From Limnohabitans sp. TEGF004 (GTDB lineage: Bacteria > Pseudomonadota > Gammaproteobacteria > Burkholderiales > Burkholderiaceae_C): a DNA stretch of 64,000 bases. The stretch spans positions 1-64,000 of the forward strand of contig NZ_AP027057.1 in NCBI RefSeq assembly GCF_027924965.1. The letters are read 5' to 3'. Position 1 is the first letter of the stretch. Every line of letters starts with the position of its first letter. The position numbers and the translations under genes were made by a program. Shown here one piece after another: positions 4,194-59,119 of this stretch. Below the pieces are notes generated by a model. That model searched no databases. It saw only the letters and a program-made list of their open reading frames with translations, and was not told the origin of the DNA.

Positions 4194-4233
4194 ACGCGAA
4201 CCTCCTTCGTTAGTTATTCGAACTTGAATCACA

Positions 4234-4828: not shown

Positions 4829-6226
4829 ATGCTTAAAACAAAAACCCCTGACCAAGAGGCACTCAACCTTGCAGAAGCGGAGGAGGAGGTCTTATCAGCT
4901 TCTACCCCGGCATCTTCTGGGAATGTTCTGAAAAAACCTGTCGACACTCTAGCGATGGCGCCTGCGGAGGGTGGCCGGATCACGGTAATTGAGCGCAGGT
5001 TGTATTTCACGTTGATTTGGTTTGCTCAACGTCAAGGATGGCAAATAGGCCAGGAAAGCTTTAGCGCGCCTCTTTCTGAAGTTCTCAAGAAGATGAACTA
5101 CAAGAGCCGTAACATGAAACTCATTCGCGATGCGCTCACGTCAATGACAACCACGCCTGTTGAATGGCAGTCTCCAACAGCAGGAGAGGGTTCGAATTGG
5201 GGCGTTAGCGGGATGATTTCACACGCAGAAATTATCAGCAACAGACTCGGCAGCACCCTCGAATGGTCTTATTCGCCAAAAGTAAGGCCAGAAATTTTGA
5301 ACCCCTTTCCATTTGCCCGTGGATCTCTGGAGGTGCAAGATCTTTTAAAAACACATGCTGGGCTTGCGCTTTACGACATTGTGACTCGTTACCTGAGTAG
5401 TGCAACTGGACTGACCCCGCGGCGCCACTGGTCTTGGTGGCGGCCAGTTCTTACTGGAAACGCCGACAGTATGGACAGTGCCATTGAGTTTAAGTCGTTT
5501 AACAGAGACTACGTGAAAAAAGCAATCAATGAGATTAACTCAAAGACCTCAGTCAATGTCGAGTTGATAACACACAAAGCTGGACCCAAAGTAGTTGATC
5601 TTCAGTTTAGAGCGACCCGCAAGAAGAACTACAAGCCCCCATTGCAAAATATCAATACCGAAAGTGGGCTCAAAGAAATTGGTCGTGCCATCGCACTTGG
5701 CATTACACAAAAACAGGCGGAGTTGTTCTTTGATGAACATGGAGAAAACACCCTTTCGAAGGGCCTTGATGTTCTGGCCGAGCGTATAGCTAAGCCTGGC
5801 TTACGCTCTGTTGAGAAGCCAAAACAATATTTAGAAAAAGTGCTGGAAAACCATCCGACTGACGCACAAACTGGAGCGCTTATAGATACACAGAAAGAAC
5901 AAGCGCGCGAAAAACAAAAGCGTATTGAACTTCTAGAACAGTACCGCGCTAATCGACTACAAGACGCTTGGGAGTTGTATCAAGAGAGCAACGATAGCGA
6001 CAAGACATTCTTGGTCGAGCAGTTTGTGATGCAAGTCCTTGACAAAGGCCCTGAATCAACAAAACGACTCTACGAGCAGAAGGGATTCCAAGCAACGTCA
6101 GTGAGAAGCCTAATGAAAACAAGCCTAGCAGAACACTATTTTGGAGAAGGGTGGAAGACACCGAATGATGACGTCTTGTTCCGGTTCGCTTTGAACTTCA
6201 TCAAGACCGAAGACAGTGGCAAATAA
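4829..6226 (+). CDS. rep: Replication initiator, Rep_3 superfamily
   Basis: This is the initiator that would bind the iterons upstream and open the origin. The 465-residue protein has the two-winged-helix layout of Rep_3 initiators. An N-terminal domain runs over about 45-160 (ERRLYFTLIWFAQRQGW, then FSAPLSEVLKKMNYKSRN). A second domain covers about 165-280 (LEVQDLLKTHAGLALYDIVTRYL, then FKSFNRDYVKKAINEINSKTSVNVELI). The remaining C-terminus is helical and charged, longer than in the smallest family members. The ATG at 4829 follows directly after the iterons. The length and the type Ia parAB beside it fit a low-copy large plasmid or chromid. Confidence 0.9.
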   Translation: MLKTKTPDQEALNLAEAEEEVLSASTPASSGNVLKKPVDTLAMAPAEGGRITVIERRLYFTLIWFAQRQGWQIGQESFSAPLSEVLKKMNYKSRNMKLIRDALTSMTTTPVEWQSPTAGEGSNWGVSGMISHAEIISNRLGSTLEWSYSPKVRPEILNPFPFARGSLEVQDLLKTHAGLALYDIVTRYLSSATGLTPRRHWSWWRPVLTGNADSMDSAIEFKSFNRDYVKKAINEINSKTSVNVELITHKAGPKVVDLQFRATRKKNYKPPLQNINTESGLKEIGRAIALGITQKQAELFFDEHGENTLSKGLDVLAERIAKPGLRSVEKPKQYLEKVLENHPTDAQTGALIDTQKEQAREKQKRIELLEQYRANRLQDAWELYQESNDSDKTFLVEQFVMQVLDKGPESTKRLYEQKGFQATSVRSLMKTSLAEHYFGEGWKTPNDDVLFRFALNFIKTEDSGK

Positions 6227-8427: not shown

Positions 8428-9187
8428 CCGGGAGATTTCTAGGCGCTGCAGTAACTCTTTGGCGGTGTGGTGCAGCGGTGCCAGCATTTCGCGTTTGTCG
8501 CGCTCGCGGTTCATGTGCTGGTGGCCAAAGTTCTTGGCATCCTGCTTGAGGACAGCCAGCTCGGAGAGGGTGTCTTCATGCACCAGCAACTGCGCCAATG
8601 CCGCCTTGAGCGGGTTCGTCCAACAGGCCATCGAGCAAGCCGCCCAAGCGGCGGTGCTCGGCGGTCAATGCGCCACTGACAATCTCCTGCAGGGTGGTGT
8701 AGCCCGGCCGGATGATCTTGCGCTCGCCCAGCGCGGCGACCAATTCCATGGCCACGAAGCTGGGTGTCACATCACGGCGCACCAGTTGCTCGGCCAGCGA
8801 TGCGAGCCAGAGCAGACTGGCCGAAGACCAGGATTGGTACCCGGCCAGTGCTGTGATACCGTCACGCTGGGCATAGCGTTCGTGCTTGGAGATGGGCAGC
8901 AGCGCCACCGCCTGGTCTTGGAAATACCGGCTGGTGACGAAGGCGCAGTCCTCAGCCACCTCATCCCAGTCGAACGCGAAGAAGGCGCGCTTGGCTTTGA
9001 AGTAGCCAATTTGCAGAATGCAATGCACCTGGGCATGCAGGCTGGGGCGGCTATTGACCAACGCCAGCTCAGTCTCTGACAGAGCGAGGTATTCCAGTTG
9101 CTGGCCCTCGTCGAAGTTGGGTACACCGTACAGGGCCTCTTGCACGGCGTCCGACAAGACGCTCAAGCGCTCGCTCTTGGCGGTCAT
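8428..9187 (-). pseudogene. tnpA: N-terminal part of a Tn3-family transposase, truncated and frameshifted
   Basis: The ATG at 9187 opens a typical Tn3-family TnpA N-terminal domain (DUF4158): MTAKSERLSVLSDAVQEALYG, YLALSETELALVNSRPSLHAQ, CILQIGYFKAKRAFF and VRRDVTPSFVAMELVAALGE. Near 8600-8640 the frame shifts: the remainder (KAALAQLLVHEDTLSELAVLKQDAKNFG) continues in another frame. The gene is then cut at about 8427 by the IS5 end. The catalytic C-terminal two thirds, over 650 residues in intact members, is gone. The start overlaps the tnpR stop by 4 bp (ATGA), the usual tnpR-tnpA coupling. Confidence 0.85.
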
Positions 9188-45097: not shown

Positions 45098-46447
45098 ATG
45101 AATATTGAGCGCAAAAAGAAAAGAGGGTGGCGCGCAAATTTGTTGTGGTTTGCAGATGCAGCTAAGAAAGAGCTTTCGTACTTACAAGATGGGCTATTGA
45201 TAACAGCTGAAGGTGCCGATGGGGTTGTCCGTATTGAAGCGTTGGGCGCCTATCAAGAGGTTCGACAAAAGTATTGCGATGTGAGTGTGACGCATTGGCC
45301 AGATCGTTGCATAGCCCCTGGCTTTATTGATTTACATGTTCATTATTCTCAAACGGACGTGATTGCATCGCCTGCACAAGGGCTTCTTCCCTGGTTGGAG
45401 CAGTACACATTTCCGCATGAGAAGAGGTTCTCTGAGATTGATTACGCGAGTTCGGTTGCTCGATATTTCTTAGATGAATTGCAAAGAAACGGAGTAACAA
45501 CAGCGCTTTGTTTTGCGACTTCACATGTTGAGTCGGTTGACGCATTGATGCAAGAAGCTCAAGCGAGAAGACTTCGAATGATTACGGGGAAGGTTTTGCA
45601 AAACCGATTCAGTCCGGATGGGTTACGAGATGTAGATACTGCTCAGAGCTTGCAACAAACCCAAAGCTTGATTGATAAGTGGCATAAGAAAGACCGGCTT
45701 GGATATGCCATCACCCCTCGATTTGCGCCGACTAGTTCAGAACGACAACTACGCGGGTGCGGGGAGTTGGCGCAACAATATCCGGATGTGTGGGTACAGT
45801 CCCACGCGGCTGAAAACAAAGACGAGATTCGATGGGTAAAGGAGCTCTATCCAAAAGCGCGCAGTTACATAGATGTCTACGATCAAGCTGGTTTGTTGAG
45901 ACAACGAGCTATTTATGCGCACTGTGTGCACATAGATGGGGAAGATCGTGTCCGATTGGCTGACGTTGGGGCGTCAATTGCCTGTAGTCCTACCAGTAAC
46001 TTATTTCTTGGTAGTGGTTTTTTCGATTTCGCGGGTGCAGACGAGGCGGGTGTGAAGTATGGTCTAGCGAGCGATGTCGGTGGGGGAACAAGCTTCTCGC
46101 CATTTGTCACCATGCATGCGGCTTATACCGTAGCTCTCCAAGATTCTGGGCGAAGAAGTCATAGTTTGTCCCCTCATGACTTGTGGTGGATGCACACAGC
46201 AGGAGCAGCCCAATGCTTAGGATTGGAGGGCATTGTTGGGAATTTATTGCCAGGGTGTGAAGCGGATTTCGTTGTTATAAATCCATCGGCAACGGAGTTG
46301 CTGAAACGGCGGACCACTCAAGCCGAGTCTTTAGAGGAATGGTTGTTCGCGATGATTGTTTTAGGTGATGATCGACTGATCTGTCGCACGGTTATCCAAG
46401 GCGATGATTGCGCAGAGGTGGGGCAGGCCTATTGGCCAGAGATATAG
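45098..46447 (+). CDS. guaD: Guanine deaminase
   Basis: This zinc amidohydrolase converts guanine to xanthine, the substrate of the two genes before. It has 449 residues. Zinc-binding motifs: FIDLHVHYSQTDVIAS (about 76-91), VQSHAAENKDEI (about 230), YAHCVHIDGED (about 268) and LASDVGGGTSFS (about 319). The phrase LPWLEQYTFPHEKRF is diagnostic of GuaD within the amidohydrolases. It starts 3 bp after xdhB. The operon therefore turns guanine into urate. Confidence 0.94.
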   Translation: MNIERKKKRGWRANLLWFADAAKKELSYLQDGLLITAEGADGVVRIEALGAYQEVRQKYCDVSVTHWPDRCIAPGFIDLHVHYSQTDVIASPAQGLLPWLEQYTFPHEKRFSEIDYASSVARYFLDELQRNGVTTALCFATSHVESVDALMQEAQARRLRMITGKVLQNRFSPDGLRDVDTAQSLQQTQSLIDKWHKKDRLGYAITPRFAPTSSERQLRGCGELAQQYPDVWVQSHAAENKDEIRWVKELYPKARSYIDVYDQAGLLRQRAIYAHCVHIDGEDRVRLADVGASIACSPTSNLFLGSGFFDFAGADEAGVKYGLASDVGGGTSFSPFVTMHAAYTVALQDSGRRSHSLSPHDLWWMHTAGAAQCLGLEGIVGNLLPGCEADFVVINPSATELLKRRTTQAESLEEWLFAMIVLGDDRLICRTVIQGDDCAEVGQAYWPEI

Positions 46448-46524
46448 AGATGATCTCTGAAGAATATGTCATGGATTTTGTGTAGAACGGAGCTGCACTT
46501 TGAGAGACCATTGTTCCTGCTAGA
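46448..46524. other. Short spacer after guaD
   Basis: Nothing recognisable besides a probable end of the purine transcript. Confidence 0.3.
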
Positions 46525-46738
46525 GCCCAACTACTTTATTACGACATGCAACAGAGTCAATCTCCGTGTCCTCACACCTAGTAGATGCAACTTCCCATTG
46601 AAGCTCTCGATGTAGCCGTTTTGCATGGGGCGTCCTGGTTGAATCAAGATATGCCTCACACCATGCGCCGTTGCCCAAGCCATAAAAGCTCGGCTCGTGA
46701 ACTCAGGGCCGTTGTCTGTTCGTACTGCTAGCGGTTAA
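46525..46738 (-). pseudogene. Relic of an IS3-family OrfB (integrase core)
   Basis: The minus strand reads PLAVRTDNGPEFTSRAFMAW, then AHGVRHILIQPGRPMQNGYIESFNGKL. It contains the second and third catalytic regions (DNGPEF and the Glu in NGYIESFNGK) of an IS3-type DDE transposase. A stop precedes the first motif and the sequence loses similarity after NGKL. Left over between guaD and the CRISPR locus. Confidence 0.8.
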
Positions 46739-46987
46739 GCAAGATCTGCTTCATCACAACTAACATCTGCGGTATCGAGACCATCCTGGTCGCCAGGATT
46801 AATAAAGATAGGTGACTCTTGGATTGCTCATCGGCAAATTGTGTGGTCTTCATATCCGTAATACGCCAGAATTAACGGACTTACTGCCTTGGTATGTATG
46901 GCTGGGACGTCTCGCCACCTTTTAAATTGCGCAACCAGGCTGCACTACGCACTCTAAAAGTGTGAATGCCGCTAATTTTGATCGCCT
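46739..46987. other. Spacer between the IS3 relic and the tracrRNA
   Basis: Probably further decayed transposase sequence; I can align none of it with confidence. Confidence 0.3.
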
Positions 46988-47087
46988 AAGACAAAAGGCC
47001 GCATATAGCGGCCTTTTCATTTGATGCATCTGGAAGAAATCTTCAGCTTGTTAGCGCCCAGAGCACATATCCCAATCTACTTCTACG
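46988..47087 (-). ncRNA. Predicted tracrRNA of the type II-C CRISPR system
   Basis: The minus strand between the IS3 relic and cas9 carries an anti-repeat: ATTGGGATATGTGCTCT at about 47056-47077 is identical to the plus-strand CRISPR repeat core and thus complementary to a crRNA read from the minus strand. Flanks match only partly (AGTCT, later GGGCGC for AGCCGG), as normal for tracrRNAs. After it come a short stem GAAGA-TTT-CTTC and a strong terminator. An extended -10 box (TGC-TATATT, 47093-47098 and upstream) would start the RNA near 47087. The RNA pairs with crRNA, is cut by RNase III and loads Cas9. Ends are predictions. Confidence 0.85.
46993..47017 (-). terminator. Terminator of the predicted tracrRNA
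   Basis: AAAAGGCCGC-ATATA-GCGGCCTTTT is a perfect 10-bp stem with T run in either direction. In the minus direction it ends the tracrRNA about 90-100 nt after its start. Confidence 0.85.
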
Positions 47088-47136
47088 AGACTAATATAGC
47101 ACAATAGAAAACATTAATTAATACAAGGACAAGAAT

Positions 47137-50100
47137 ATGAATGAAATGCACTACAGGCTAGCTCTGGACCTCGGTTCCACATCTCTTGGCTGGGCCATGG
47201 TCAGGCTCAATGCAGAAAACCAACCCTGCGCCATCATCAAAGCTGGTGTTCGCATTTTTAGCGACGGACGCAACCCAAAAGACGGTTCGTCACTTGCCGT
47301 GACACGGCGCGAAGCTCGTGCCATGCGCCGCCGCCGCGATAGATTGCTCAAGCGCAAAGCGCGCATGATGAAGACACTCATCACTCACGGTTTCTTTCCG
47401 CAAGACGAAGAAGATCGCAAACTATTGGAACGATCTGACCCATTCGCACTACGCGCCAAGGGTCTAGACCAGGCGCTCAGAGCTGACGAGTTCGCGCGAG
47501 CGCTCTTTCACATCAACCAAAGACGTGGCTTTAAAAGCAACCGCAAAATAGACAAAGAAGAAAACGACAGCGGCGCATTAAAAACTGCCATCAGCCAATT
47601 ACGGCAGGCAATGGAAGCAACACAATGCCGCACCGTGGGCGAATGGCTCAATATGCGTCATCAGTCAGGTCTATCGGTACGCGCACGCTATCGCCAACAC
47701 ATGGTGCACCGCGAAGACGGCAAAACCAAAACAGAAATGCGTTACGACCTCTACATTGATCGAGCCATGATTGAAAACGAGTTTGATGCACTATGGCAGA
47801 AGCAATCCGAACTCAACCCAAAGCTATTTAACGAAATTGCACGCGCTGAACTCAAAGACTGCTTGCTACATCAACGCCCACTCAAACCTGTCAAGCCTGG
47901 CCGATGCACGCTCATGTCCGAAGAGGAGCGTGCGCCGTTAGCTTTGCCTAGTCAACAACGTTTTCGGATTTACCAAGAAGTCAATAACCTGCGCTTGTTG
48001 AAAGAAGGGCTGAGTGAGCAAGCCCTCACGCTAGAGCAACGCAACCAAATCATTCAAGCACTTGAAGGCAATACGAAGCGAACATTCACACAGATCAAAA
48101 AACTCATTGGGTTTTCGGGTGGCTTTAACCTTGAAGATGAAGAACGCACAGAGCTCAAAGGCAACAGCACGAGTGCAATGCTAAGCAAGAAAGATTTGTT
48201 TGGTCCTGCATGGTTTGAGCTGAGTGAAGATCAACAAGACCGCATCGTGATGCAGCTTGTCAAAGAAGAAAACGAAGCCACTCTGGTGCGTTGGTTGCAA
48301 GAAAACACGGGCATCGACGAGGCCACAGCAGAACGCGTGGCAAACACCAACTTAGCAGAAGGCTACGGCAGCCTTTGCGCCAATGCACTGCAAAAAATAT
48401 TGCCTGCACTCAAAGCCGAGGTCATCACCTATGATAAAGCTGTGCTGGCTGCAGGCTTTGACCACCATAGCAACATCAGCCATGCCCGCACAGGCGAAAT
48501 ACTACCGAGCCTGCCCTACTACGGCGAATACTTGCAGCGCCATGTTGGCTTTGGAACAGGCAAGCCCGAAGACACGCCAGAGAAGCGTTACGGCAAGATT
48601 GCCAACCCCACCGTACACATTGGGCTGAATCAAATTCGCACGGTGGTGAACGCCTTGCTCAAACGCTACGGCCACCCTAGTGAAGTCATCATTGAGCTGG
48701 CCCGTGATTTGAAGCAAAGCCAAGAGCAACGCAAAAAAGAACAACAGCGCCAAGCAGCTAACCAAAAGCGCAACCAACGTATGCGCGAAGACATTACAGC
48801 ACTGCTACACATCAGCGCTGAACGTGTCAAAACTGCTGACCTTCAAAAAATGATTTTGTGGGAAGAGTTGAGTTTCAACGTGGCCGACCGACGCTGCCCC
48901 TACAGCGGTGTGCAAATTAGCGCGCAAATGCTGTTTAGCGACCAAGTGGAAATTGAGCACATCTTGCCTTTCTCAGCAACCTTGGATGACAGCCTAAGCA
49001 ACAAGACAGTGGCCATGCGTCAAGCCAACCGCATCAAAGGCAACCGCAACCCTTGGCAAGCCAAAGATGACTTTGCTAAACAAGGCTGGGCTACAGAAGA
49101 CATGCTGGCACGCGCAGAACTGATGCCAACAAACAAACGCTATCGCTTTAGCGAAACCGGCTACGCACAGTGGCTGCGTGATGACAAAGGCTTTTTAGCG
49201 CGCGCACTGAACGATACGCGCCACCTTAGCCGCGTGGCCAAGGAATACATGAGCCTTATCTGCCCTCAAGACACGCGTGCTGTGCCTGGCCAGTTGACCG
49301 CCATGCTGCGTGGCAAGTTTGGGCTGAACAACATACTTGGCCTAGATGGTGAGAAAAACCGCAATGACCACAGACACCACGCGGTAGATGCATGCGTCAT
49401 TGCCGTGACCGACCAAGGCATGCTGCAACGCTTTGCACAAGCAAGCGCCTGCGCACGCCAACAACAACTCGGCAAACTGGTAGACAACATGCCGATGCCT
49501 TGGCCTACCTACCGAGAGCATGTACAACGTGCCATCGAGCACATTTGGGTCAGTCATAAGCCTGATCATGGCCACGAGGGGGCCATGCACAACGACACAG
49601 CCTATGGTTTAGGTGCAAATGGCAAAGTACGCGTACACAAAATGGTGGATGGCGTTCGCACTTTGGAGGAAAGCTCACTCAAAGTCATTGCATTTAGTGA
49701 ACCCAAAGCATCAGCACGTCATGGCGTCTTACCCACTGGCGAAGCCAAACCCTACAAAGGCTACAAAGGCGACAGCAATTACTGCATTGAAATTGTGCGC
49801 AACGAAAAAGGTAAGTGGGAAGGAGAGGTTGTTTCTACCTTCGAGGCATATCAAATAGTTCGACAGCACGGCTTATCGAAACTACGTCATCCAACCCTAA
49901 GCATCAGAAATAAACCACTCGTCATGCGTTTATTGATTGATGACGTTGTGAAATTAAGCACACCAGACAAAAGCAACTATGTTGGACGCATCGCAACGAT
50001 CAGCGGAAATGGTCAAATATTTATGGCCCCACACAATGAGGCTAATGTAGATGCGCGAAATCGAAGCAAAGAGGATGTGTTTTCTTACATTTCGAAAATG

Positions 50101-50184
50101 GCCGGATCACTACAAAAAGCAACCGGCCGCCGCGTCAGCATCTCACCCATCGGCGAACTCAAAGACCCAGGCTTTCAAGGCTAA
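47137..50184 (+). CDS. cas9: Cas9 endonuclease, compact type II-C
   Basis: This is the RNA-guided double-strand DNA nuclease of the locus. Its 1015 residues place it with the short II-C group. RuvC-I has Asp11 in LALDLGSTSLGWAM. The Arg-rich bridge helix is TRREARAMRRRRDRLLKRKARM (about 55-76). RuvC-II has Glu520 in VIIELARDL. HNH has VEIEHILPFSATLDDSLSNK with His608. RuvC-III is DHRHHAVDACVIAV with His747/748 and Asp751. All catalytic positions are present, so it should be active. AAGGAC precedes the ATG. The C-terminal part holds the PAM-interacting domain; its PAM cannot be read off. cas1 follows after 2 bp. Confidence 0.97.
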   Translation: MNEMHYRLALDLGSTSLGWAMVRLNAENQPCAIIKAGVRIFSDGRNPKDGSSLAVTRREARAMRRRRDRLLKRKARMMKTLITHGFFPQDEEDRKLLERSDPFALRAKGLDQALRADEFARALFHINQRRGFKSNRKIDKEENDSGALKTAISQLRQAMEATQCRTVGEWLNMRHQSGLSVRARYRQHMVHREDGKTKTEMRYDLYIDRAMIENEFDALWQKQSELNPKLFNEIARAELKDCLLHQRPLKPVKPGRCTLMSEEERAPLALPSQQRFRIYQEVNNLRLLKEGLSEQALTLEQRNQIIQALEGNTKRTFTQIKKLIGFSGGFNLEDEERTELKGNSTSAMLSKKDLFGPAWFELSEDQQDRIVMQLVKEENEATLVRWLQENTGIDEATAERVANTNLAEGYGSLCANALQKILPALKAEVITYDKAVLAAGFDHHSNISHARTGEILPSLPYYGEYLQRHVGFGTGKPEDTPEKRYGKIANPTVHIGLNQIRTVVNALLKRYGHPSEVIIELARDLKQSQEQRKKEQQRQAANQKRNQRMREDITALLHISAERVKTADLQKMILWEELSFNVADRRCPYSGVQISAQMLFSDQVEIEHILPFSATLDDSLSNKTVAMRQANRIKGNRNPWQAKDDFAKQGWATEDMLARAELMPTNKRYRFSETGYAQWLRDDKGFLARALNDTRHLSRVAKEYMSLICPQDTRAVPGQLTAMLRGKFGLNNILGLDGEKNRNDHRHHAVDACVIAVTDQGMLQRFAQASACARQQQLGKLVDNMPMPWPTYREHVQRAIEHIWVSHKPDHGHEGAMHNDTAYGLGANGKVRVHKMVDGVRTLEESSLKVIAFSEPKASARHGVLPTGEAKPYKGYKGDSNYCIEIVRNEKGKWEGEVVSTFEAYQIVRQHGLSKLRHPTLSIRNKPLVMRLLIDDVVKLSTPDKSNYVGRIATISGNGQIFMAPHNEANVDARNRSKEDVFSYISKMAGSLQKATGRRVSISPIGELKDPGFQG

Positions 50185-50186
50185 GC

Positions 50187-51113
50187 ATGCAAGGCCGCAT
50201 CGTTGAAGTTGCCGATGACCGCAGACACCTGTCGGTCTATCGCGGCTTCATGCTGGTGCACAGCACAGGTGATGACCGCCAAGAGATAGGCCGCGTAGCA
50301 CTGGACGACATGGCAGCGCTGATAGCCAGCGCGCACGGCATCAGCTACACCAACAACTTGCTGGTAGCACTGGCCGAACGAGGTGTGCCTTTTGTACTGT
50401 GCGCGGCTAATCACAAACCTGTTGGCATGTTGTGGCCTTTAGATGGCCACCACCTTCAAGCCCACCGGTTTGATGGACAAATTGCCTGCACATTGCCTAC
50501 TAAAAAGCGTTTGTGGGCTAGCCTTGTCAAGGCCAAACTGTTGCAACAAGCAGCGTTACTAGAAGCCACGGGCGTAGCTGCTGCGCCTTTAAAAAAATTG
50601 GCAAAAAACGTACGCAGTGGTGATCCTGAAAACTTTGAGGCCCAAGGCGCACGCAAATATTGGGGTCTACTATTTGGTACTTTGTTTAGGCGCGATCAAG
50701 AAGCTGACGGGCTCAATGCCCTGCTGAACTATGGCTACACCGTGCTGCGCGCCGCTACGGCCCGTGCAGTAGTGGCCGCAGGTTTGCACCCAAGCATTGG
50801 GCTGCACCATAGCCATGACAACAATGCCATGCGATTGGTGGATGACTTGATGGAGCCATTTAGGCCTGTAGTCGATTGGACCGTTTGGCAACTGCAACAT
50901 AACCAACCATGTCACATCAACCCAGAGACTAAACGTGCCTTGATCAAAAGCCTATACCTTGACCTTGCCACGCCTACGGGCAATACACCTGTACTGGTGG
51001 CTATACAAAAACTGGCTACATCTTTTGCGCAAGTGCTGACCAACGAGCGCACGGTACTTGACCTGCCACACCCATGTGTGCCCGCAGCACATGTGCAGGA
51101 CATGCGCGATTAA
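50187..51113 (+). CDS. cas1: Cas1 integrase, type II
   Basis: This is the catalytic subunit of the spacer-integration complex, 308 residues, type II branch. It starts VEVADDRRHLSVYRGFMLVHS and contains the ALDDMAALIASAHGISYTNNLLVALAERG fold core. The metal site residues appear as Glu in DPENFEAQGARKYW (about 148), His in GLHPSIGLHHSHDNNAMRLVDDLMEPFRP (about 207) and Asp in the same block (about 219). It lies 2 bp after cas9 and 8 bp before cas2, in one operon. Adaptation of II-C systems also uses Cas9. Confidence 0.96.
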   Translation: MQGRIVEVADDRRHLSVYRGFMLVHSTGDDRQEIGRVALDDMAALIASAHGISYTNNLLVALAERGVPFVLCAANHKPVGMLWPLDGHHLQAHRFDGQIACTLPTKKRLWASLVKAKLLQQAALLEATGVAAAPLKKLAKNVRSGDPENFEAQGARKYWGLLFGTLFRRDQEADGLNALLNYGYTVLRAATARAVVAAGLHPSIGLHHSHDNNAMRLVDDLMEPFRPVVDWTVWQLQHNQPCHINPETKRALIKSLYLDLATPTGNTPVLVAIQKLATSFAQVLTNERTVLDLPHPCVPAAHVQDMRD

Positions 51114-51121
51114 TTCACAAC

Positions 51122-51448
51122 ATGCTGAGCGGATATCGACTGATGTGGATGCTGGTGATGTTTGATTTACCCGTGATGACCAAGCCTGAACGCAAAGCAG
51201 CCAATGAATTCCGACTCAATTTGTTAGACATGGGTTTTCTGCGCAGCCAGCTGAGTGTTTACATGCGCTTTTGCACTAGCCACACGCAAGTGCAAACCTA
51301 TTGCCAACGTGTAGAACAAGCGCTGCCGCTAGGAGGACAAGTGAACATCTTGCAAATGACCGATAAACAGTACGAACGAATCATTAGCTTTCAAGGTCGC
51401 AAAGCCATGCCCGCGAAAAAGACGCCAGATCAGTTTGATTTGTTTTGA
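51122..51448 (+). CDS. cas2: Cas2 protein
   Basis: This is the structural partner of Cas1 in spacer acquisition, 108 residues. The ATG at 51122 starts MLSGYRLMWMLVMFDLPVMTKPERKAANEFRLNLLDMGF, where the first strand with the conserved Asp (MFDLP) is typical. QLSVYMRFCTSHTQV and VNILQMTDKQYERIISFQG follow. A longer frame from 51074 overlaps cas1 and lacks support. No csn2 or cas4 follows, which confirms subtype II-C. Confidence 0.95.
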   Translation: MLSGYRLMWMLVMFDLPVMTKPERKAANEFRLNLLDMGFLRSQLSVYMRFCTSHTQVQTYCQRVEQALPLGGQVNILQMTDKQYERIISFQGRKAMPAKKTPDQFDLF

Positions 51449-51470
51449 ATCAGCTGGTTTTCTTGAACGC

Positions 51471-51510
51471 CAAAAAGCAAATAACCCTTGTAAAACAAGA
51501 GGTTATTTGC
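51471..51510 (-). terminator. Terminator at the end of the CRISPR array, minus strand
   Basis: GCAAATAACC...GGTTATTTGC at 51477-51510 is a 15-bp stem with one bulge and a three-base loop. On the minus strand it is followed by TTTTTGG. It stands 6 bp from the last repeat in the crRNA direction, so it ends the pre-crRNA and stops antisense transcription into cas2. It confirms the array orientation given by the tracrRNA. Confidence 0.85.
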
Positions 51511-51516
51511 TGGAAC

Positions 51517-53401
51517 AGTCTAGACGATTGGGATATGTGCTCTAGCCGGAACTTGCGAATCATCGCTAGTGTGAGTGGCCGTAGTCTAGACGATTGGGAT
51601 ATGTGCTCTAGCCGGAACAGAATGCGTTGATGACCACGCCGCGTTTTTAGTCTAGACGATTGGGATATGTGCTCTAGCCGGAACCAGCTCGACATGTTCT
51701 ATGACATGTTCACCAGTCTAGACGATTGGGATATGTGCTCTAGCCGGAACCTGATAAAGCTACTAAACGAAAAAGTTGTGAGTCTAGACGATTGGGATAT
51801 GTGCTCTAGCCGGAACCTTAGCGGTCGTCAAAACAACACTGTGGTGAGTCTAGACGATTGGGATATGTGCTCTAGCCGGAACTCACTGGAGTTTCTTAAA
51901 TGAAAGGCCGCGAGTCTAGACGATTGGGATATGTGCTCTAGCCGGAACTAGCCATGTCCGCAGGGATTTTGGGCTTCGAGTCTAGACGATTGGGATATGT
52001 GCTCTAGCCGGAACTCAATTGCTGGGTTAACACAGGCGTTGGCCAGTCTAGACGATTGGGATATGTGCTCTAGCCGGAACTACGTCAAAGAACTCATTCA
52101 GGACATGAGTAGTCTAGACGATTGGGATATGTGCTCTAGCCGGAACCTGTCTGACGTGCCTCACAAATCCACGCGCAGTCTAGACGATTGGGATATGTGC
52201 TCTAGCCGGAACTTGAACGAGTTGTACTCGCGCGTACCAACGAGTCTAGACGATTGGGATATGTGCTCTAGCCGGAACTGCCAATCAAATTCGCGCATGG
52301 CCTCATCGAGTCTAGACGATTGGGATATGTGCTCTAGCCGGAACGAAAGCTCATAGACTCCCCCGGCTACTGCGAGTCTAGACGATTGGGATATGTGCTC
52401 TAGCCGGAACTGCAAATTATTCGTCCTAAAAAGAGGGATGAGTCTAGACGATTGGGATATGTGCTCTAGCCGGAACTAGTCGCGGCGGATTTCATTGCTT
52501 AGGTCAAGTCTAGACGATTGGGATATGTGCTCTAGCCGGAACAGGAGGAAGAGCGAGCATCAATTGTCGATGAGTCTAGACGATTGGGATATGTGCTCTA
52601 GCCGGAACTCCAAGAGCGCATTGCTGTGATGGTTAAAGAAGTCTAGACGATTGGGATATGTGCTCTAGCCGGAACCTTGGCCTCAAGTTGGTCATTGACT
52701 ACGACAGTCTAGACGATTGGGATATGTGCTCTAGCCGGAACGCCAGCTTCTTAGCAGTCAATTGCACACCGAGTCTAGACGATTGGGATATGTGCTCTAG
52801 CCGGAACTCGGTCTACGGCTGCATGCTTGCGTGAATTAGTCTAGACGATTGGGATATGTGCTCTAGCCGGAACGCGCAATCCAGGCGATAAGAAGCGCGA
52901 GGGAGTCTAGACGATTGGGATATGTGCTCTAGCCGGAACTCAGTCTCCACACATCCGAGAAGCTGCTTCAGTCTAGACGATTGGGATATGTGCTCTAGCC
53001 GGAACAGGGGCTCCGCGTTTACCTGAGCCAAAAGCAGTCTAGACGATTGGGATATGTGCTCTAGCCGGAACAATTGACTTGGTCGGCGTTTTTCCAATGT
53101 AAGTCTAGACGATTGGGATATGTGCTCTAGCCGGAACTTGGTATATGTCGCCCATGCTCTCCACGCTAGTCTAGACGATTGGGATATGTGCTCTAGCCGG
53201 AACAGAGGCCCCGCGTTTACCTGAGCCAAAAGCAGTCTAGACGATTGGGATATGTGCTCTAGCCGGAACTGGTACTTGCTTGGGTTGTCATGCCAGAGAA
53301 GTCTAGACGATTGGGATATGTGCTCTAGCCGGAACTTGACAGTCGCACAAGAGCGTCAGGCTATTAGTCTAGACGATTGGGATATGTGCTCTAGCCGGAA
53401 C
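51517..53401 (-). CRISPR. CRISPR array, 29 repeats of 36 bp, 28 spacers plus one open-ended spacer
   Basis: Twenty-nine repeats of 36 bp start every 66 bp from 51517 (one spacer, before 52640, is 31 bp, all others 30). The repeat reads AGTCTAGACGATTGGGAT at its plus-strand left end and CTCTAGCCGGAAC at its right end. I saw no variation among the 29 copies. The crRNA is the minus strand, starting GTTCCGGC, since the tracrRNA anti-repeat is complementary to it. The unit after the last repeat (53402-53431) is a normal 30-bp spacer but has no repeat behind it. Spacers 53006-53035 and 53204-53233 are nearly identical. Repeat 3' ends (TAGACT) only loosely resemble the repeat-internal promoters known from Neisseria. 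Confidence 0.97.
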
Positions 53402-53438
53402 CGCCAAGCGAAAACCTACGAAGATTTCAGCCGATCTA

Positions 53439-53464
53439 CCTAAGATAATCTGAATTATCTTAGG
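53439..53464. repeat. Perfect 11-bp hairpin at the array/mazEF junction
   Basis: CCTAAGATAAT-CTGA-ATTATCTTAGG begins 8 bp after the last spacer. There is no T run on either side. It could be a weak terminator for mazF or the end of an inserted segment. Confidence 0.6.
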
Positions 53465-53517
53465 CTCAAATTTCAGCACCAATTCGGCTCTTCGCCGCTA
53501 ATCTTGAGGCCTCCTTT

Positions 53518-53844
53518 TTATCTCGGCAAGCCGAGATGCACCTTGATTGCGTCTTCGACGGCCAGCAGATCGGCCTTTACCAGGCTTCCCAATTGGTTTT
53601 TTAGCCTGGCTTTGTCTGCTGCCATGATTTGGTCCGCCATGGCTTTGCTGGCTTGCCCTGCAATGGCCACAACAGCTTCGCCTGGGTAGGTCTTGCCTGT
53701 GTTGCTTGTCAGTGGCACCACCACCACTCTGGCCAGGTTTCGATTTGCGGCATCGTTGCTGACGATGACCGCTGGGCGGGTCTTCTTGATTTCCGTGCCC
53801 ACCGATGGATCAAACTCAACCCACCAGACTTCACCGCGCTTCAT
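53518..53844 (-). CDS. mazF: MazF/PemK-type endoribonuclease toxin
   Basis: This is a sequence-specific mRNA interferase of 108 residues. I start it at the ATG at 53844, giving MKRGEVWWVEFDPSVGTEIKKTRPAVIVSND, the diagnostic MazF beginning. The active-site Arg is in KKTRPAV. VVVVPLTSNTGKTYPGEAVV and then ADQIMAADKARLKNQLGSL include the conserved Thr and the dimer parts. It overlaps the antitoxin by 14 bp. The pair lies between the array and a stray repeat and reads in the same direction as the crRNAs. Confidence 0.93.
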   Translation of the reverse strand: MKRGEVWWVEFDPSVGTEIKKTRPAVIVSNDAANRNLARVVVVPLTSNTGKTYPGEAVVAIAGQASKAMADQIMAADKARLKNQLGSLVKADLLAVEDAIKVHLGLPR

Positions 53845-54061
53845 TGGCCATGTCCTTAGCGAGCGCGTTGGTCCATTCCATAGCTTCGGCTTCACGGGCC
53901 TGGTCTTGGGCCATGGCCTTGTATCCGTCATCCAGTGACTTGCCCAGGACGTGAGGGCGCAACAAGTCTTCGATGAATTGGCTCATCTTCCGCTTGCCAA
54001 TGGTGCGCCACAGCCCTTCGTAGACCGCCTCATCCAGCGTGATCGTCATCTTCTTGTGCAT
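53831..54061 (-). CDS. MazF-partner antitoxin
   Basis: This is a 76-residue antitoxin: MTITLDEAVYEGLWRTIGKRKMSQFIEDLLRPHVL is a ribbon-helix-helix-like DNA-binding part, and the acidic tail (AMAQDQAREAEAMEWTNALAKDMANEA) would cover the toxin. GGAGCAAT precedes its ATG. It belongs to the non-AbrB antitoxins found with PemK/MazF toxins. The pair is probably self-repressing through the palindrome upstream. Confidence 0.85.
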   Translation of the reverse strand: MHKKMTITLDEAVYEGLWRTIGKRKMSQFIEDLLRPHVLGKSLDDGYKAMAQDQAREAEAMEWTNALAKDMANEAR

Positions 54062-54078
54062 TATTGCTCCTTGAATAC

Positions 54079-54091
54079 GTTATACGTATAC
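54079..54091. promoter_or_regulatory. Near-palindromic operator upstream of the mazEF-like pair
   Basis: GTTATACGTATAC differs from its reverse complement at two of 13 positions. It sits 18 bp before the antitoxin start, where an autoregulated promoter is expected. Confidence 0.5.
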
Positions 54092-54203
54092 ATTGTAGGC
54101 TCAGATGCCCAAAAAAAGCAAGCCTATATCACTGCGCTCGCTTCCAAGAGCCTCAGCGGGTTAGACGTGCTTTAAATTCCGTTATCTACAGCGATCCCTA
54201 ATT

Positions 54204-54239
54204 AGTCTAGAAGATTGGGATATGTGCTCTAGCCGGAAC
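54204..54239 (-). CRISPR. Isolated degenerate CRISPR repeat
   Basis: This single copy of the 36-bp repeat matches the array repeat except for one C-to-A change at its ninth plus-strand base. It stands 802 bp from the end of the main array, with the mazEF-like pair between. Its right end lies inside the 3' end of the response-regulator gene and provides that gene's codons CGT TCC GGC TAG (the CG comes partly from outside). It marks the former edge of the array. Confidence 0.95.
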
Positions 54240-54870
54240 GTAGGGGGCAAAGTGGACGCTGATTGATTTTCTGAAGGATTAGGACCGCGTCAAGAAAACC
54301 ACGTAGCCATTCCATGTCGACAGGTTTTCTCATATATTGAACACCGTCAGGGAGACCACCTTCTGCGATAACTTCATCGTGGCTTAAGCCGCTCATTGCG
54401 ACAACCGCTATGTCTCGATAAAGTCCGTGCTTACTCAGTGACTTCAGAAATTCGAAGCCATTCATATGAGGCATCCGTAAATCTGTGAGTATGACGTGCG
54501 GCTTCCAGCTTGTTAAATCTAGCAATGCATCTACGGCTGACTCGTAAAGAAGTGCATCGACTACCATACCCCATTGTTCAAATGAGGCCTTAAGCATCAA
54601 CCGAGTTGTTTCGTCGTCATCAATGATGAGTATGCGCATCATGCCGCGATGGGGATTCATAGATGACGTTGAGGGTAAGTTGTGTTGGAGTTGGTATTTA
54701 CGAATTGATGCTAGGGAGATTCGTCGATGACCGCCTTGTGTTTTCCAAGCGACCAGCTCATTCTTCTCTACGAGTGCCTGAACAGTCCCGACGGACAAGT
54801 CGAGTAGATTAGAAGCATAACTTGTACCGCAATAGTCGTCATGTGATTCACTTAGCGAATGTTCTTTCAT
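54229..54870 (-). CDS. Response regulator with N-terminal excisionase-type DNA-binding domain
   Basis: This is a 213-residue regulator with an uncommon order: a MerR/excisionase-type helix-turn-helix first (about 15-62: YASNLLDLSVGTVQALVEKNELVAWKTQGGHRRISLASIRKY), then a receiver domain (about 78-200). In the receiver the acidic cluster is IIDDDETTR (84-86), the phosphoacceptor is Asp130 in VILTDLRMPHMNG, and the conserved Lys is in YMRKPVDMEW. The C-terminal end LCPLRSG and the TAG stop come from the stray CRISPR repeat, so the original C-terminus has changed. The hybrid kinase at 56.5 kb is a possible partner. Confidence 0.9.
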   Translation of the reverse strand: MKEHSLSESHDDYCGTSYASNLLDLSVGTVQALVEKNELVAWKTQGGHRRISLASIRKYQLQHNLPSTSSMNPHRGMMRILIIDDDETTRLMLKASFEQWGMVVDALLYESAVDALLDLTSWKPHVILTDLRMPHMNGFEFLKSLSKHGLYRDIAVVAMSGLSHDEVIAEGGLPDGVQYMRKPVDMEWLRGFLDAVLILQKINQRPLCPLRSG

Positions 54871-54941
54871 ATGCTTTCTTTGAAGTATGGACTGCCAATA
54901 TTGTATTCTTAACCCATAGATTTATGAGTCATTTATGGCTA

Positions 54942-55232
54942 TTTTTTGACATTTCCAACACAAGCGCGAGAATTGCCTTTGCAATGTTGGCATTCACGTG
55001 AGCAAACCCAATTTCGTTATGTGATCTGAAAATGCCTAATAGCGTTGATACCGAGCTGTGTGCTAGCAGCAACGTGTCGTCGTTCTGCCTCAGACGAATG
55101 CCTAACTTATTGAAGAAGTCGCAATGTGGTGGAGCTCAACAATGCTCATGATTCAGATGCTGAAAGCTGAGTAGGTGTTTATATAGATCATATCTTCTGG
55201 CTTGAGCGGTAACTCGGCCATCATCGCGCTTG
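54942..55232 (-). pseudogene. Decayed coding sequence of unknown family
   Basis: Directly after the NHL lipoprotein gene, the minus strand reads LASAMMAELPLKPEDMIYINTYSAFSI, a stop, then (other frames) MSIVELHHIATSS and FNKLGIRLRQNDDTLLLAHSSVSTLLGIFRSHNEIGFAHVNANIAKAILALVLEMSKNSHK to a TGA near 54942. The composition and length of the open stretches suggest a real gene that has suffered at least two frameshifts. I cannot name the family. Confidence 0.45.
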
Positions 55233-56258
55233 CTAATTCAGGGGTGCGGAAACGAGGACTTTGCGAACCTTATGACTGCCGTAATCTGATACATACAAAT
55301 AGCCAAAAGAGTCAATTGCTAAACCTGATGGGAGGTTGAAGCGCGCACTACTGCCATCGCCATCAGACGTTCCAGGTGCGCCAATGACACCGGCCAATGT
55401 AGATATATTGCCAGTTGGGGTGATTTTGCGAATGACATGGTTTCCCTGGTCAGCTACAAAAATATTGTCATTCTTGTCTGTGATGATTCCGAAAGGTTGG
55501 TTCAGATTTGCTTGCCCATTCAGTGAAATTGTGAGACTAGTAACAAGGAAATTGGAACCAGACTTGGTGATCTTCCAAATTTTGTTTAAGTTGTAATCTG
55601 TGACAAGAATATTGCCATGGCTATCAAGAGCAATACCTTGCGGACGGCTGTCGCTTGGGAAGGCAATTGTTTGAGTTACACCACCAGAGATGATGTACAG
55701 AGATCCAAAGAAATCGGCGACATAAAGTGCGCCGGTGTTCCCATCGAAATAGATGGCATTTGGGGTCGCATTTGGAATGTCGACGAGGGGAGATTTGATT
55801 TTGGTACTAAGTGGAATTCTATAAACTACGGTGTCATCAGTTGAAGCAACGTACAAATTTGAATTCTTATCAAGTGCAAGGCCTACTGGTGCGGAGAACC
55901 CAGCCGCAAATGCGGTTTCTTGATTATTAGTATCAATTCTCCGGATAGTATCGTAGTAATTAGAAACTACATGATTGTCCGCATCTGGCTGATCATCGCG
56001 CCATTGCGCAACGTACAGATTTCCCGAATTGTCTGTTGCCAATCCGATTGGGTTTGGATTCTCAGATTCAGCGCCGCCAACAAGAGTGGTTACTTGAGCT
56101 AGTCTAGTGGGTGAGATTAGTGCGGAAACGGCTCCTACTTGCAGTGCTGATATGGCATTGATTCCAGTAGCCTCGGCACTCGTCTGGCCGCCCCCGCCAC
56201 AGCCGATAAGGAATGCTATTGACGTAGCTATGACTGTCAATTGCGCAATATTTTTCAT
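55233..56258 (-). CDS. NHL-repeat lipoprotein
   Basis: This is a 341-residue lipoprotein with signal and lipobox MKNIAQLTVIATSIAFLIGC (lipid Cys20), then GGGG. From about 68 to the end it is a propeller of NHL-type repeats: PIGLATDNSGNLYVAQWRDD, PVGLALDKNSNLYVASTDD, GIALDSHGNILVTDYNLNKIWKI, FGIITDKNDNIFVADQGNHVIRKI, GLAIDSFGYLYVSDYGSHKVRKV. It is clearly paralogous to the C-terminal part of the 689-residue protein at 39-41 kb (shared YVAQWRDD and RKI blocks) but lacks the tandem N-terminal modules. Probably surface-exposed or periplasmic; function unknown. Confidence 0.85.
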   Translation of the reverse strand: MKNIAQLTVIATSIAFLIGCGGGGQTSAEATGINAISALQVGAVSALISPTRLAQVTTLVGGAESENPNPIGLATDNSGNLYVAQWRDDQPDADNHVVSNYYDTIRRIDTNNQETAFAAGFSAPVGLALDKNSNLYVASTDDTVVYRIPLSTKIKSPLVDIPNATPNAIYFDGNTGALYVADFFGSLYIISGGVTQTIAFPSDSRPQGIALDSHGNILVTDYNLNKIWKITKSGSNFLVTSLTISLNGQANLNQPFGIITDKNDNIFVADQGNHVIRKITPTGNISTLAGVIGAPGTSDGDGSSARFNLPSGLAIDSFGYLYVSDYGSHKVRKVLVSAPLN

Positions 56259-56537
56259 GAGGAGCCTTGTGGAGATAGACGGAAGTGATGGTGCTCAACC
56301 ACACATGCAGAGAAAGGGGAGTACATCACTTGATGTAGCTCACCTAATATTAACACAAAAACATCATAAAAGGGTTTTCAAAAAATATATTAGAATTACT
56401 TTAGGGCCCATGGAGTTGCTCATTAAAGTGCCTTGACACGGTGTCTGATCTGTTTGATGCCATTCAGCAGAAGTCAAATCGAACAACTGATAGTGTCTGG
56501 TAGGCATAGAATCGATGACTAAAGGGGTGTCTTGGAT

Positions 56538-58382
56538 ATGAAATTCTCTGCTACCGAAGAAACAAACTACCCTAGTCGGTTGTTGAAATTACAAAGAACT
56601 TTCTTGTATTTGTTTTATACGTCGGTCCCTCGGAAACTGAGGACGAAGGAGAATATTTTTTTCCTTTGTTTTTCGAGTTCGGCATTATTCTTTTTGTTGT
56701 TTTTCATTGGCCCTGTTCTTTGGGTGATTAACCAAGAGCGTTCATCAATTTCCGCCTTTATATGTTCCTTTTTCATCTTCATTAGTATGATTATGTGGAA
56801 GCGTGGCAGTTCGCTTGTTCTGGTGCATCTTATTTATCAAGGTTCGTTATTAGGAGTTATTCTCTATAATGCCTATTATCTGGGCGGTGTTACATCATCA
56901 GTCATGGTATGGATGGGGCTAGTTCCAATTCTCCCTATTTTTCTTATGTCTAGGGAGTGGGGTTATGGGTGGCTAGTAGGCTCTATTGCAATTGTCTTGG
57001 GTATGTTGCAATTGCAGACAAACGGCCATATCCCGATGAGGTTGGGAGATACGATTGATGATTTATATTTGAGCACATTAATGATAGGAATGCTGAGTCT
57101 TACTCAAATGATCTTAGTAAGTACGTATGACACGGCAAGCTGGACGATGTTTCAGCAAATCACAAAGAAAAATGAGGCTCTACAAGCGCTCTCTAGAAAA
57201 TTGGAAATAGCAAGTTCCCATAAAGATACATTTCTTGCGACTGTTAGTCATGAGATGCGTACACCGTTGAACGCAGTATTCGGGTTTCTCAATATTATTG
57301 AGAGAACAGATCATTTGCCATCTGAGGTCTACGGATTTGTCAAACACGCGAAGAACTCCTCATCACATTTACTAACTGTTATTAATGACCTATTAGATTT
57401 CTCCCAAATGCAGCAAGGCCGATTGGTACTTGCTCCTCAGGTGGTCCATCTAAAGCAAACCGTGTATCAAATACATGCGGCTTTACAAAGCCGAGCAGCC
57501 GAGAAAGATCTGAAGTACAGCCTTGAATTCATAGGCGAGATCCCTCAATATGTTAAGTTGGATCCTCATCGGTTAACTCAAATTCTCCTTAATTTGCTTG
57601 GGAATGCGGTGAAGTTCACGAATCAGGGTGGTGTGAGAACGGAGATTCGTGTCTTTTCGGCTGTTGATGTGAAGCACAGCAATGACGTTACGTTTGAGAT
57701 CGTGGTCTCGGATACTGGAATCGGGATCTCTGAGCATCAGATCGGAAAAGTATTTGAACCATTTGTTCAAATCAAAGAACAGGACCATATTGAGTCCGAT
57801 TATTCATTAAGGGGTAACGGACTTGGTCTCTCGATTACAAGAAGTCTTGTTCTATTGCAAGGTGGGGTGATAGACGTCCAAAGTAAGAAGGGAGAGGGTT
57901 CGGCGTTTCGTGTGTGTTTGCCGGTTCATGTTGAGCAGGCGCCAAACTCTCTGCGTGATAAGTCTGAGCCCAGCGCGAATCCAATTGAAATAAATCTTCT
58001 GGTTGTGGATGATCACCAAATGAACCGAATGGTAGTAAGCAACCTAGTTAAAAAGTTCTTCCCTAATGCAACTATTACAGAAGCAAAAAATGGAACAGAA
58101 GCGTTGACGAAGATGCGCTCAGAACTCTTCGATTTAGTACTAATGGACCTGATCATGCCTGATTTAACAGGGACGGAAGTTGTTGAGATCATTCGTAAGG
58201 AGGCCGCTCCTTATTCAGATGTCAATGTCGTTGCTTTAACTGCTAATTTGGCTAATGAAGCGTTGCATGAGTGTAATCGTGTTCACATGCAAGGCGTCTT
58301 GCCTAAGCCTATAGATCTTGGTTTACTTGTGCAGACGATTACACAGTTTGGAATGCCCAAAGATCTGAAAGAAATTCACTGA
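56538..58382 (+). CDS. Hybrid sensor histidine kinase with C-terminal receiver
   Basis: This is an inner-membrane sensor kinase of 614 residues. The ATG at 56538 is preceded by AAAGGGGTG. Six hydrophobic segments span about 36-195 (e.g. FFLCFSSSALFFLLFFIGPVLWVI). The dimerisation helix holds His238 in FLATVSHEMRTPLNAVFGF. The ATPase domain has the N-box ILLNLLGNAVKFTNQGG, DTGIGISEHQIGKVFEPF and GNGLGLSITRSLVLLQGG. The receiver (about 487-605) has the acidic pair VVDDHQ and Asp537 in LVLMDLIMPDLTG, with Lys in LPKPIDL. No extracytoplasmic sensor domain is obvious, so the membrane part itself is the probable sensor. Confidence 0.95.
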   Translation: MKFSATEETNYPSRLLKLQRTFLYLFYTSVPRKLRTKENIFFLCFSSSALFFLLFFIGPVLWVINQERSSISAFICSFFIFISMIMWKRGSSLVLVHLIYQGSLLGVILYNAYYLGGVTSSVMVWMGLVPILPIFLMSREWGYGWLVGSIAIVLGMLQLQTNGHIPMRLGDTIDDLYLSTLMIGMLSLTQMILVSTYDTASWTMFQQITKKNEALQALSRKLEIASSHKDTFLATVSHEMRTPLNAVFGFLNIIERTDHLPSEVYGFVKHAKNSSSHLLTVINDLLDFSQMQQGRLVLAPQVVHLKQTVYQIHAALQSRAAEKDLKYSLEFIGEIPQYVKLDPHRLTQILLNLLGNAVKFTNQGGVRTEIRVFSAVDVKHSNDVTFEIVVSDTGIGISEHQIGKVFEPFVQIKEQDHIESDYSLRGNGLGLSITRSLVLLQGGVIDVQSKKGEGSAFRVCLPVHVEQAPNSLRDKSEPSANPIEINLLVVDDHQMNRMVVSNLVKKFFPNATITEAKNGTEALTKMRSELFDLVLMDLIMPDLTGTEVVEIIRKEAAPYSDVNVVALTANLANEALHECNRVHMQGVLPKPIDLGLLVQTITQFGMPKDLKEIH

Positions 58383-58389
58383 TGTAGTT

Positions 58390-58728
58390 CTAATGATGTG
58401 GACTCTTGCATGTGAAGTCTTGGTTGAAGTGTTCCAAGATTTCTTCCCAGCAATCGACGGTGATTATGTGGCCGTCTTCTGCGACCACTCCCTGGGCAAT
58501 CATAAATAAAGACTTTAGCCTTTTCTGTGCTTTTTTTGCAGTCATCTTAGCTTCAGAAAATGATTTGCAGCCTTGTACTCTTAGCCAAGCTTGGGAGGCT
58601 TTGAAAAAGGAATAGCGAATTTCTTCTGCTTCTGCAGAAGATTGGGCGGCGGGCATTAATTCAATAGCCTTCTTGCGCATTTCATTCGTAATAATGACAG
58701 CATTAGTCATGGCGGATTGTTTAGGCAT
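58390..58728 (-). CDS. Uncharacterised 112-residue protein, third gene of the ribbon-helix-helix operon
   Basis: I do not recognise it. It is a small soluble helical protein: AVIITNEMRKKAIELMPAAQSSAEAEEIRYSFFKASQAWLRVQG, then AKMTAKKAQKRLKSLFMIAQGVVAEDGHIITVDCWEEILEHFNQDF. It is charged throughout and has no signal or membrane segment. It follows the preceding gene after 13 bp. Confidence 0.65.
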   Translation of the reverse strand: MPKQSAMTNAVIITNEMRKKAIELMPAAQSSAEAEEIRYSFFKASQAWLRVQGCKSFSEAKMTAKKAQKRLKSLFMIAQGVVAEDGHIITVDCWEEILEHFNQDFTCKSPHH

Positions 58729-58741
58729 GTTTCGCGCGGGC

Positions 58742-59119
58742 CTAATGAAGGTAGGCTGATTTCTGAGGATGGATTGGTGTGCCGATCAATTGTGGAATGA
58801 GCTTCATGTTCTTAAAAACACGGAAATTCTCTATGTCCTCTGGTAGGAAGTCGGACAGCTCTTGATTAATCTCGCCATGGTTATTACGCCAATAGCCATT
58901 GGTAAGTCTGACGAAGTTCCGATACTCAATATCGCCCACGCTGTTGTAAAGGATGAGCTCGACAGCGCAAATGGAACGCTCACTTGATGCTCGGTATTCG
59001 GCCATGAGCACAGTGCGATTTGAAGATTCATCCGCATAGAGGGCGGCACATCCTTGATACAAACCGGGTGCGAGAGCTGCTTTCTGAGCGGCAACTGACG
59101 GATGGTTATAAATAAACAT
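58742..59119 (-). CDS. Uncharacterised 125-residue protein, second gene of the ribbon-helix-helix operon
   Basis: Family unknown. The ATG follows the TAA of the upstream gene with no gap. The sequence looks like a compact alpha/beta protein: GLYQGCAALYADESSNRTVLMAEYRASSERSICAVELILYNSVGDIEYRNFVRLTNGYWRNNHGEIN. Two Cys residues may be buried or bind metal; no known motif is seen. Confidence 0.65.
   Translation of the reverse strand: MFIYNHPSVAAQKAALAPGLYQGCAALYADESSNRTVLMAEYRASSERSICAVELILYNSVGDIEYRNFVRLTNGYWRNNHGEINQELSDFLPEDIENFRVFKNMKLIPQLIGTPIHPQKSAYLH

Follow-up and report, generated by a model that had tools for sequence, protein, structure and literature searches.

A mazEF pair with a Tn3-type end probably separates the trailer repeat from a type II-C CRISPR array in Limnohabitans sp. 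TEGF004

The stretch of DNA described here, called the window throughout, comprises the first 64,000 nucleotides of contig NZ_AP027057.1 of Limnohabitans sp. TEGF004 (genome G000 in our comparisons). It holds a type II-C clustered regularly interspaced short palindromic repeat (CRISPR)-Cas locus, with cas9, cas1, cas2 and a candidate trans-activating CRISPR RNA (tracrRNA) together in one place (Table 1). The operon has no further cas gene, cas2 being followed by the array after 68 bases; no search for csn2 or cas4 was made in the rest of the genome. The array reads back towards cas2 and is made of perfect 36-bp repeats (0 expected in 100 shuffles), and 27 of its 28 spacers are 30 bp long, with one of 31 bp. 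Beyond its cas2-distal end lie a mazEF-like toxin-antitoxin pair and then, 802 bp from the array, a stray repeat with one change from the consensus (likewise 0 expected in the shuffles). The open reading frame (ORF) of a response regulator, running from 54870 to 54229, ends in this repeat, with the residues CPLRSG and a TAG stop at 54229-54231. A first-pass annotation of the window had described these repeats, the position of the stop, the pair in between, and the common minus strand of regulator, stray repeat, mazEF and array, and all of this was borne out by the repeat search and the ORF end. That the array was split is clear; we find that it was very probably split by a non-autonomous, Tn3-family element carrying mazEF, which inserted in the last spacer near the trailer repeat and later lost one of its ends.

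Table 1. Features of the window at and around the split array
Feature	Position	Strand	Details
parB, parA and Rep3_C-domain gene	1975-6226		
tracrRNA candidate	46985-47090	-	anti-repeat core 47060-47077; terminator-like hairpin at about 46993-47018
cas9	47137-50184	+	1015 aa; NCBIfam cas_Csn1 4.8e-188
cas1	50187-51113	+	NCBIfam cas1_NMENI 2.8e-70
cas2	51074-51448	+	Pfam CRISPR_Cas2 1.5e-14; NCBIfam cas2 3.3e-16
Conserved palindromic flank between cas2 and array	51457-51516	.	leader candidate; terminator-like for minus-strand transcripts
Type II-C CRISPR array	51517-53401	-	29 identical repeats, 28 spacers
Truncated Tn3-derived miniature element with mazEF (probable)	53402-54198	-	copy in G088, layout in G061
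Inner 7 bp (CGCCAAG) of second Tn3-type inverted repeat	53402-53408	+	
MazF/PemK-family toxin	53518-53844	-	Pfam PemK_toxin 3.5e-26, on residues 31-132 of longer ORF
MazE-like antitoxin	53831-54061	-	76 aa; NCBIfam TA_MazE_antitoxin 1.6e-5, under its cut-off
Terminator-like imperfect hairpin into T7	54111-54173	-	between regulator and mazE
Tn3-family terminal inverted repeat	54161-54198	-	38 bp; outer end at 54198
TAATT, candidate 5-bp target duplication	54199-54203	.	between inverted repeat and stray repeat
Stray repeat	54204-54239	-	array's trailer-end repeat, one change
Response regulator	54229-54870	-	213 aa; HTH_17 and receiver domain; Pfam Response_reg 2.7e-17, HTH_17 7.2e-8

The pair itself has the gene layout of MazEF/PemIK modules, a MazF/PemK-family toxin with an upstream, overlapping antitoxin gene. 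The toxin likely starts at the ATG at 53844-53842, because the start of the longer ORF, 53931, falls within the antitoxin gene; the antitoxin gave no Pfam match. Similar pairs occur on 11 plasmid records at 60-80% DNA identity, relatives of the toxin alone occur on 234 plasmid records, and mazE relatives are found in 12 of 84 genomes of the genus, G000 included. Its function is most likely that of an ordinary plasmid addiction module, presumably with its own promoter. A promoter scan gave 2 candidates where 2.4 were expected. Only mazE and mazF are recognized in 53402-54198, which contains no transposase gene.

The boundaries of the element were revealed by two relatives. In the first, genome G088, positions 53402-54162 are matched at 92.7% on a 5.3-kb contig, outside any array, and nothing in that genome matches the CRISPR repeat when 3 mismatches or fewer are allowed. 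The G088 copy starts at 53402 and ends in a complete 38-bp inverted repeat on the opposite side (L112 4319-4356), which reads GGGGCTGCTGTAGAAAACGGAATTCAAAGCACGCCAAG from the outside in; the CGCCAAG with which the window's element begins corresponds to the inner 7 bp of this repeat. The stretch 53402-53431, which the first-pass annotation had taken as a full 30-bp spacer without a closing repeat, is accordingly not a spacer but part of the mazEF element that G088 carries arrayless. Between them, the two genomes display both ends, the window having one full inverted repeat and 7 bp of the other, and G088 having the opposite end in full. In the second relative, G061, the DNA follows 53366-59074 collinearly at 96.8% identity, as far as the compared stretch extends, and the element has the same layout. 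Among the ten other mazE-bearing genomes of the genus, only the G088 match reaches the element ends, and the rest share the coding core only, two of the matches (L103, L108) stopping at a contig end.

The inverted repeat at 54161-54198 is recognizable as a Tn3-family end. It differs at 6 of 38 positions from both ends of a complete Tn3 transposon, found on two plasmids of Sulfuriferula nivalis, that carries a Tn3 family transposase and a recombinase. A 26-base pattern of the inverted repeat is present in 3 of the 84 genus genomes (G000, G061 and G088), and a 33-base pattern occurs at 6 places in 4 of 399 sampled family genomes (G000 included), with 0 occurrences of the reversed control. One of these genomes, G291, has a facing pair of such repeats that enclose a Tn3 transposase domain and are separated by 4.8 kb. 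The element as a whole was matched in 28 of the 399 family genomes (G000 included; two candidates scored per genome); G000 aside, the long matches fall within query positions 107-687 of 802, and the short matches at query positions 4-47 (G291, G463) are the inverted repeat. We take the inverted repeats of the window and of G088 to resemble Tn21-type ends as well. A by-eye reading of the stretch from GTTAGAC at 54160 as the attC site of an integron cassette was dropped once the stretch had matched Tn3 ends.

Non-autonomous Tn3-type elements with 38-bp repeats and AT-rich duplications of 5 or 6 bp are described in PMC4133298, and toxin-antitoxin pairs within Tn3 transposons in PMC7157771. We infer the order of events, the target duplication and the deletion as follows. 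An element composed of inverted repeat, mazEF and inverted repeat would have entered the last spacer at a distance of five bases from the terminal repeat. What remained of that spacer would later have been deleted along with 31 bases at the outer end of the far inverted repeat, after which the mazF side would abut the next repeat of the array. Because G000 and G061 share this junction, insertion and truncation would both predate the split of their lineages. The regulator would be the original neighbor of the array, with a stop that differs by one substitution between the two genomes. The proposal in the first-pass annotation that the pair was inserted into the array is thus supported, and it gains a vehicle in the Tn3-family inverted repeat and the candidate 5-bp duplication beside the stray repeat.

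Several observations weigh against this account. No copy of the element with both inverted repeats was found, so that its two-ended form is deduced from two one-ended genomes, the G088 contig itself showing just one. The candidate duplication TAATT stands on one side only, a second not being found where the other side is lost, and an element with a duplication on just one side is at best a remnant of a Tn3-derived miniature element (TIME). No empty site was found. The catalytic domain DDE_Tnp_Tn3 (PF01526) has no match in the G000 genome, which has only a fragment with an N-terminal transposase domain (8576-9187). The junction at 53401/53402 falls exactly on a repeat border, as would seldom be expected of a random deletion; the coincidence may be fortuitous, or the real breakpoint may be masked by up to 7 shared bases. 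G000 and G061 have different spacers next to the last repeat of the array, though a spacer at the trailer end should be old; internal deletions could explain such unshared trailer-side spacers. Finally, the inverted repeat is bordered on its outer side by the 8 letters AATTAGTC both in G088 (L112 4357-4364) and, one base further out, at 54200-54207 in the window, although the surroundings differ.

Since the fragment is bounded by repeats on both sides, one of them exactly at its border, it might be viewed as an oversized spacer, integrated by Cas1-Cas2 as an 802-bp piece of mazEF DNA. We consider this hardly credible given the 30- and 31-bp lengths of all 28 array spacers, the transposon inverted repeat with 5 bases outside it at one end of the fragment, and the position of the other end within a second inverted repeat. 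The distance of 802 bp could also suggest that the stray repeat arose off target next to the regulator and was never part of the array. This too is very improbable. With an inverted repeat and 5 further bases at one end of the insert and the truncated inverted repeat at its other end, the stray repeat and the last array repeat seem to have been neighbors before the insertion, and many relatives (16 of 27) have a degenerate distal repeat.

This last count comes from a comparison of Cas9 loci, 49 in total, of which 46 were examined for arrays (the contigs of L032, L052 and L058 end at cas9) and 38 had them. Arrays were compared for 35 of the 38 together with the window, L019, L037 and L038 being dropped for having 2-3 repeat copies. 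Terminal repeats were counted in 34 loci (L051, with a masked array, was dropped), 7 of which end at a contig end, so that complete arrays were available from 27 relatives. None of the 27 has an altered terminal repeat on the cas2-proximal side, whereas 16 have one on the cas2-distal side. In the same 27 loci and the window, 216 of 378 pairs of proximal 60-base flanks resemble each other beyond the 99% level of shuffled controls, as against 9 of 378 pairs of distal flanks, with about 4 expected (the flank of L054 being that of the last repeat before a gap, and that of the window being the 60 bases that follow the stray repeat). Acquisition at the 3' end of II-C arrays has been shown according to PMC12638026; the same source allows that type II-C may include subgroups with differing acquisition ends, which speaks against our reading. 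Because distal repeats decay, only the proximal flank is conserved, and 3' acquisition is documented for II-C, the cas2-distal end is read as the trailer, where a slightly decayed last repeat would be ordinary, and spacer acquisition would occur at the cas2 end. A leader at the distal end was rejected on the same repeat decay and flank conservation, and since the distal end is the trailer, no leader is missing at the mazEF side. The earlier remark that no ordinary leader is left there was thus misleading.

The palindrome beside cas2 recurs in related II-C arrays. Its hairpin is predicted at -19.2 kcal/mol (z -5.8), and 0 of 200 shuffles fold as well; it may be both the acquisition leader and the terminator of array transcripts.

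The stray repeat of G061 has a different single change, and since the two copies are differently altered, both probably descend from an unaltered repeat at this place. Given the polarity set out above, we read the stray repeat as the ordinary old (trailer) end of the array. In G061 the regulator ends in NQRPL and a TGA, 6 codons earlier and ahead of the repeat, where G000 has TGC and reads 6 more codons to the TAG within it. The stop inside the repeat comes down to one substitution between the two genomes, and it is a weak link in the argument of the first-pass annotation. Of 16 homologues tried, 9 tails could be read, 6 others being empty and that of L086 in a wrong frame; the 9 end 2 to 8 residues beyond the NRR motif, NQR here; the regulator ends 8 residues past it in G000 and 2 in G061, both within the range of the homologues, and therefore has not been truncated by the array. 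A paralogue of the regulator with 58% identity is encoded on the large contig C1 of the genome. Elsewhere, a lone repeat with 3 changes (L111 5356-5391) stands in a genome without a Cas9 match, G015, and is perhaps the remnant of a lost array.

In prediction, the tracrRNA candidate, which is sited upstream of cas9 and has 18 bases the same as the repeat when read on the plus strand, pairs with the array repeat at -41.3 kcal/mol, with the stray repeat at -43.7 and with that of G061 at -39.4; 500 shuffled repeats give a mean of -16.5 and a lowest value of -28.3. Since the stray repeat still pairs, it could be cut if a transcript passes through it. The first-pass annotation had suggested that transcripts of the regulator pass through the stray repeat, where tracrRNA and RNase III cut them, and continue towards the array, an idea with which the shared strand of all four features agrees, as does a simple terminator scan of 53360-54960 (0 found, 1.3 expected). 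The scan did not flag an imperfect hairpin between regulator and mazE (54173-54115; -24 kcal/mol, z -2.8, equalled by 2 of 200 shuffles), which runs into a stretch of seven T at 54117-54111, the last four of them unpaired. This hairpin begins within the inverted repeat and therefore came with the element; in G061 its tail is broken by a C. Considering also that the G061 regulator ends ahead of the repeat, and that the stray repeat (2 of 36 bases different between G000 and G061) is not more conserved than its surroundings (5 of 142 in 54062-54203 and 36 of 621 in the regulator body), small numbers that give no sign of selection, we regard such read-through and processing as unlikely.

A different kind of CRISPR RNA (crRNA) might be formed at the other junction. 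The truncation joined the element end directly to a repeat, so that this end sits where a guide sits, and the last bases of the mazEF mRNA with the adjoining repeat could yield a crRNA that directs Cas9 against further copies of the element. We consider this quite improbable. Over the last 20 bases of the guide, the G088 copy, the sole outside copy known here, has 5 differences, and the target would therefore have to be a closer copy. If true, a transposon would have been turned into a spacer against its own kind.

A slightly degenerate repeat standing alone by a toxin-antitoxin pair is also the layout described in PMC9458426 for the ectopic repeats of CreTA and scaRNA systems, and the stray repeat might by analogy supply a guide with which Cas9 represses mazEF or the regulator. 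That guide would be the regulator tail, the last 7-12 bases of which match nothing else in 53400-55100. With up to 5 mismatches allowed, a scan of six sources with its last 20 bases gave, besides the guide itself and its G061 copy, just two scattered matches. In contrast to those systems, no match of the guide was found to the toxin or to its promoter, the repeat is hardly degenerate, and the toxin is a protein (with the plasmid relatives noted above). We judge an exapted repeat of this kind to be extremely improbable.

The window lies on contig C2 of G000 (148,919 bp). Because parA, parB and a Rep3_C-domain gene are present, this replicon is most likely a plasmid, which would make the Cas9 system plasmid-borne. 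By Cas9, the nearest named relative is Limnohabitans sp. Jir61, with 94% identity. The transposase-domain fragment at 8576-9187 is an ORF on the same replicon as the II-C locus; its domain is DUF4158, which we take to be the N-terminal part of Tn3-family transposases. An Rfam scan of 46000-56000 gave one chance match, under its gathering score.

Two spacers of the array, 53006-53035 and 53204-53233, are identical except at 2 of 30 bases, which would suit an origin from two variants of one target or a copying followed by drift; the pattern of these twins had 0 exact matches in viral contigs. Searched against phages (E limit 10), the array gave only weak matches to 8 records (best E 0.2), and against plasmids (E limit 1) only a weak match to 1 record (E 0.01). 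Because targets were only weakly matched, no protospacer-adjacent motif could be set.

The II-C locus of G061 is broken, the first half of cas9 being fused in frame to the end of cas2, and no cas1 was found in the stretch examined. Two of its II-C repeats enclose a type I-E array with a cas operon and Tn3 transposases, and this I-E insert is bounded by 52-bp perfect inverted repeats. The whole II-C/I-E region (L109 2845-12817 and L110 3240-8290) lies on C2 of G061, at about 127844-146290.

The element resembles TIMEs in lacking a transposase and in having a 38-bp Tn3-type inverted repeat, an AT-rich 5-bp flank and a likely plasmid location; unlike them, it carries mazEF, is truncated at one end and lies inside a CRISPR array, and its mobility is putative. 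With the Tn3 transposons of PMC7157771 it shares a toxin-antitoxin pair bounded by a Tn3-type end, but it has no visible transposase or resolvase ORF, and PemK or MazF does not occur in the main text of that paper. Among the titles and abstract openings listed from the open-access literature, we found no description of a Tn3-type mazEF element in a CRISPR array. The locus agrees with other type II-C loci of the Burkholderiales, such as that of Limnohabitans sp. Jir61, in having cas9 followed by an array that reads back towards it, and these often have a degenerate cas2-distal repeat and a conserved cas2-proximal palindrome. It differs in that the terminal repeat was split off by an insertion and the locus is on a likely plasmid.

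The rearrangement seen in the split array is clear yet fairly ordinary, and nothing so far points to a new regulatory circuit. A spacer-sized stretch at the end of an array need not be a spacer, and the polarity of Burkholderiales II-C arrays can be read from repeat decay and flank conservation. A lone repeat beside a toxin-antitoxin pair may mimic a regulatory circuit and yet be the debris of a transposon insertion at the trailer end.

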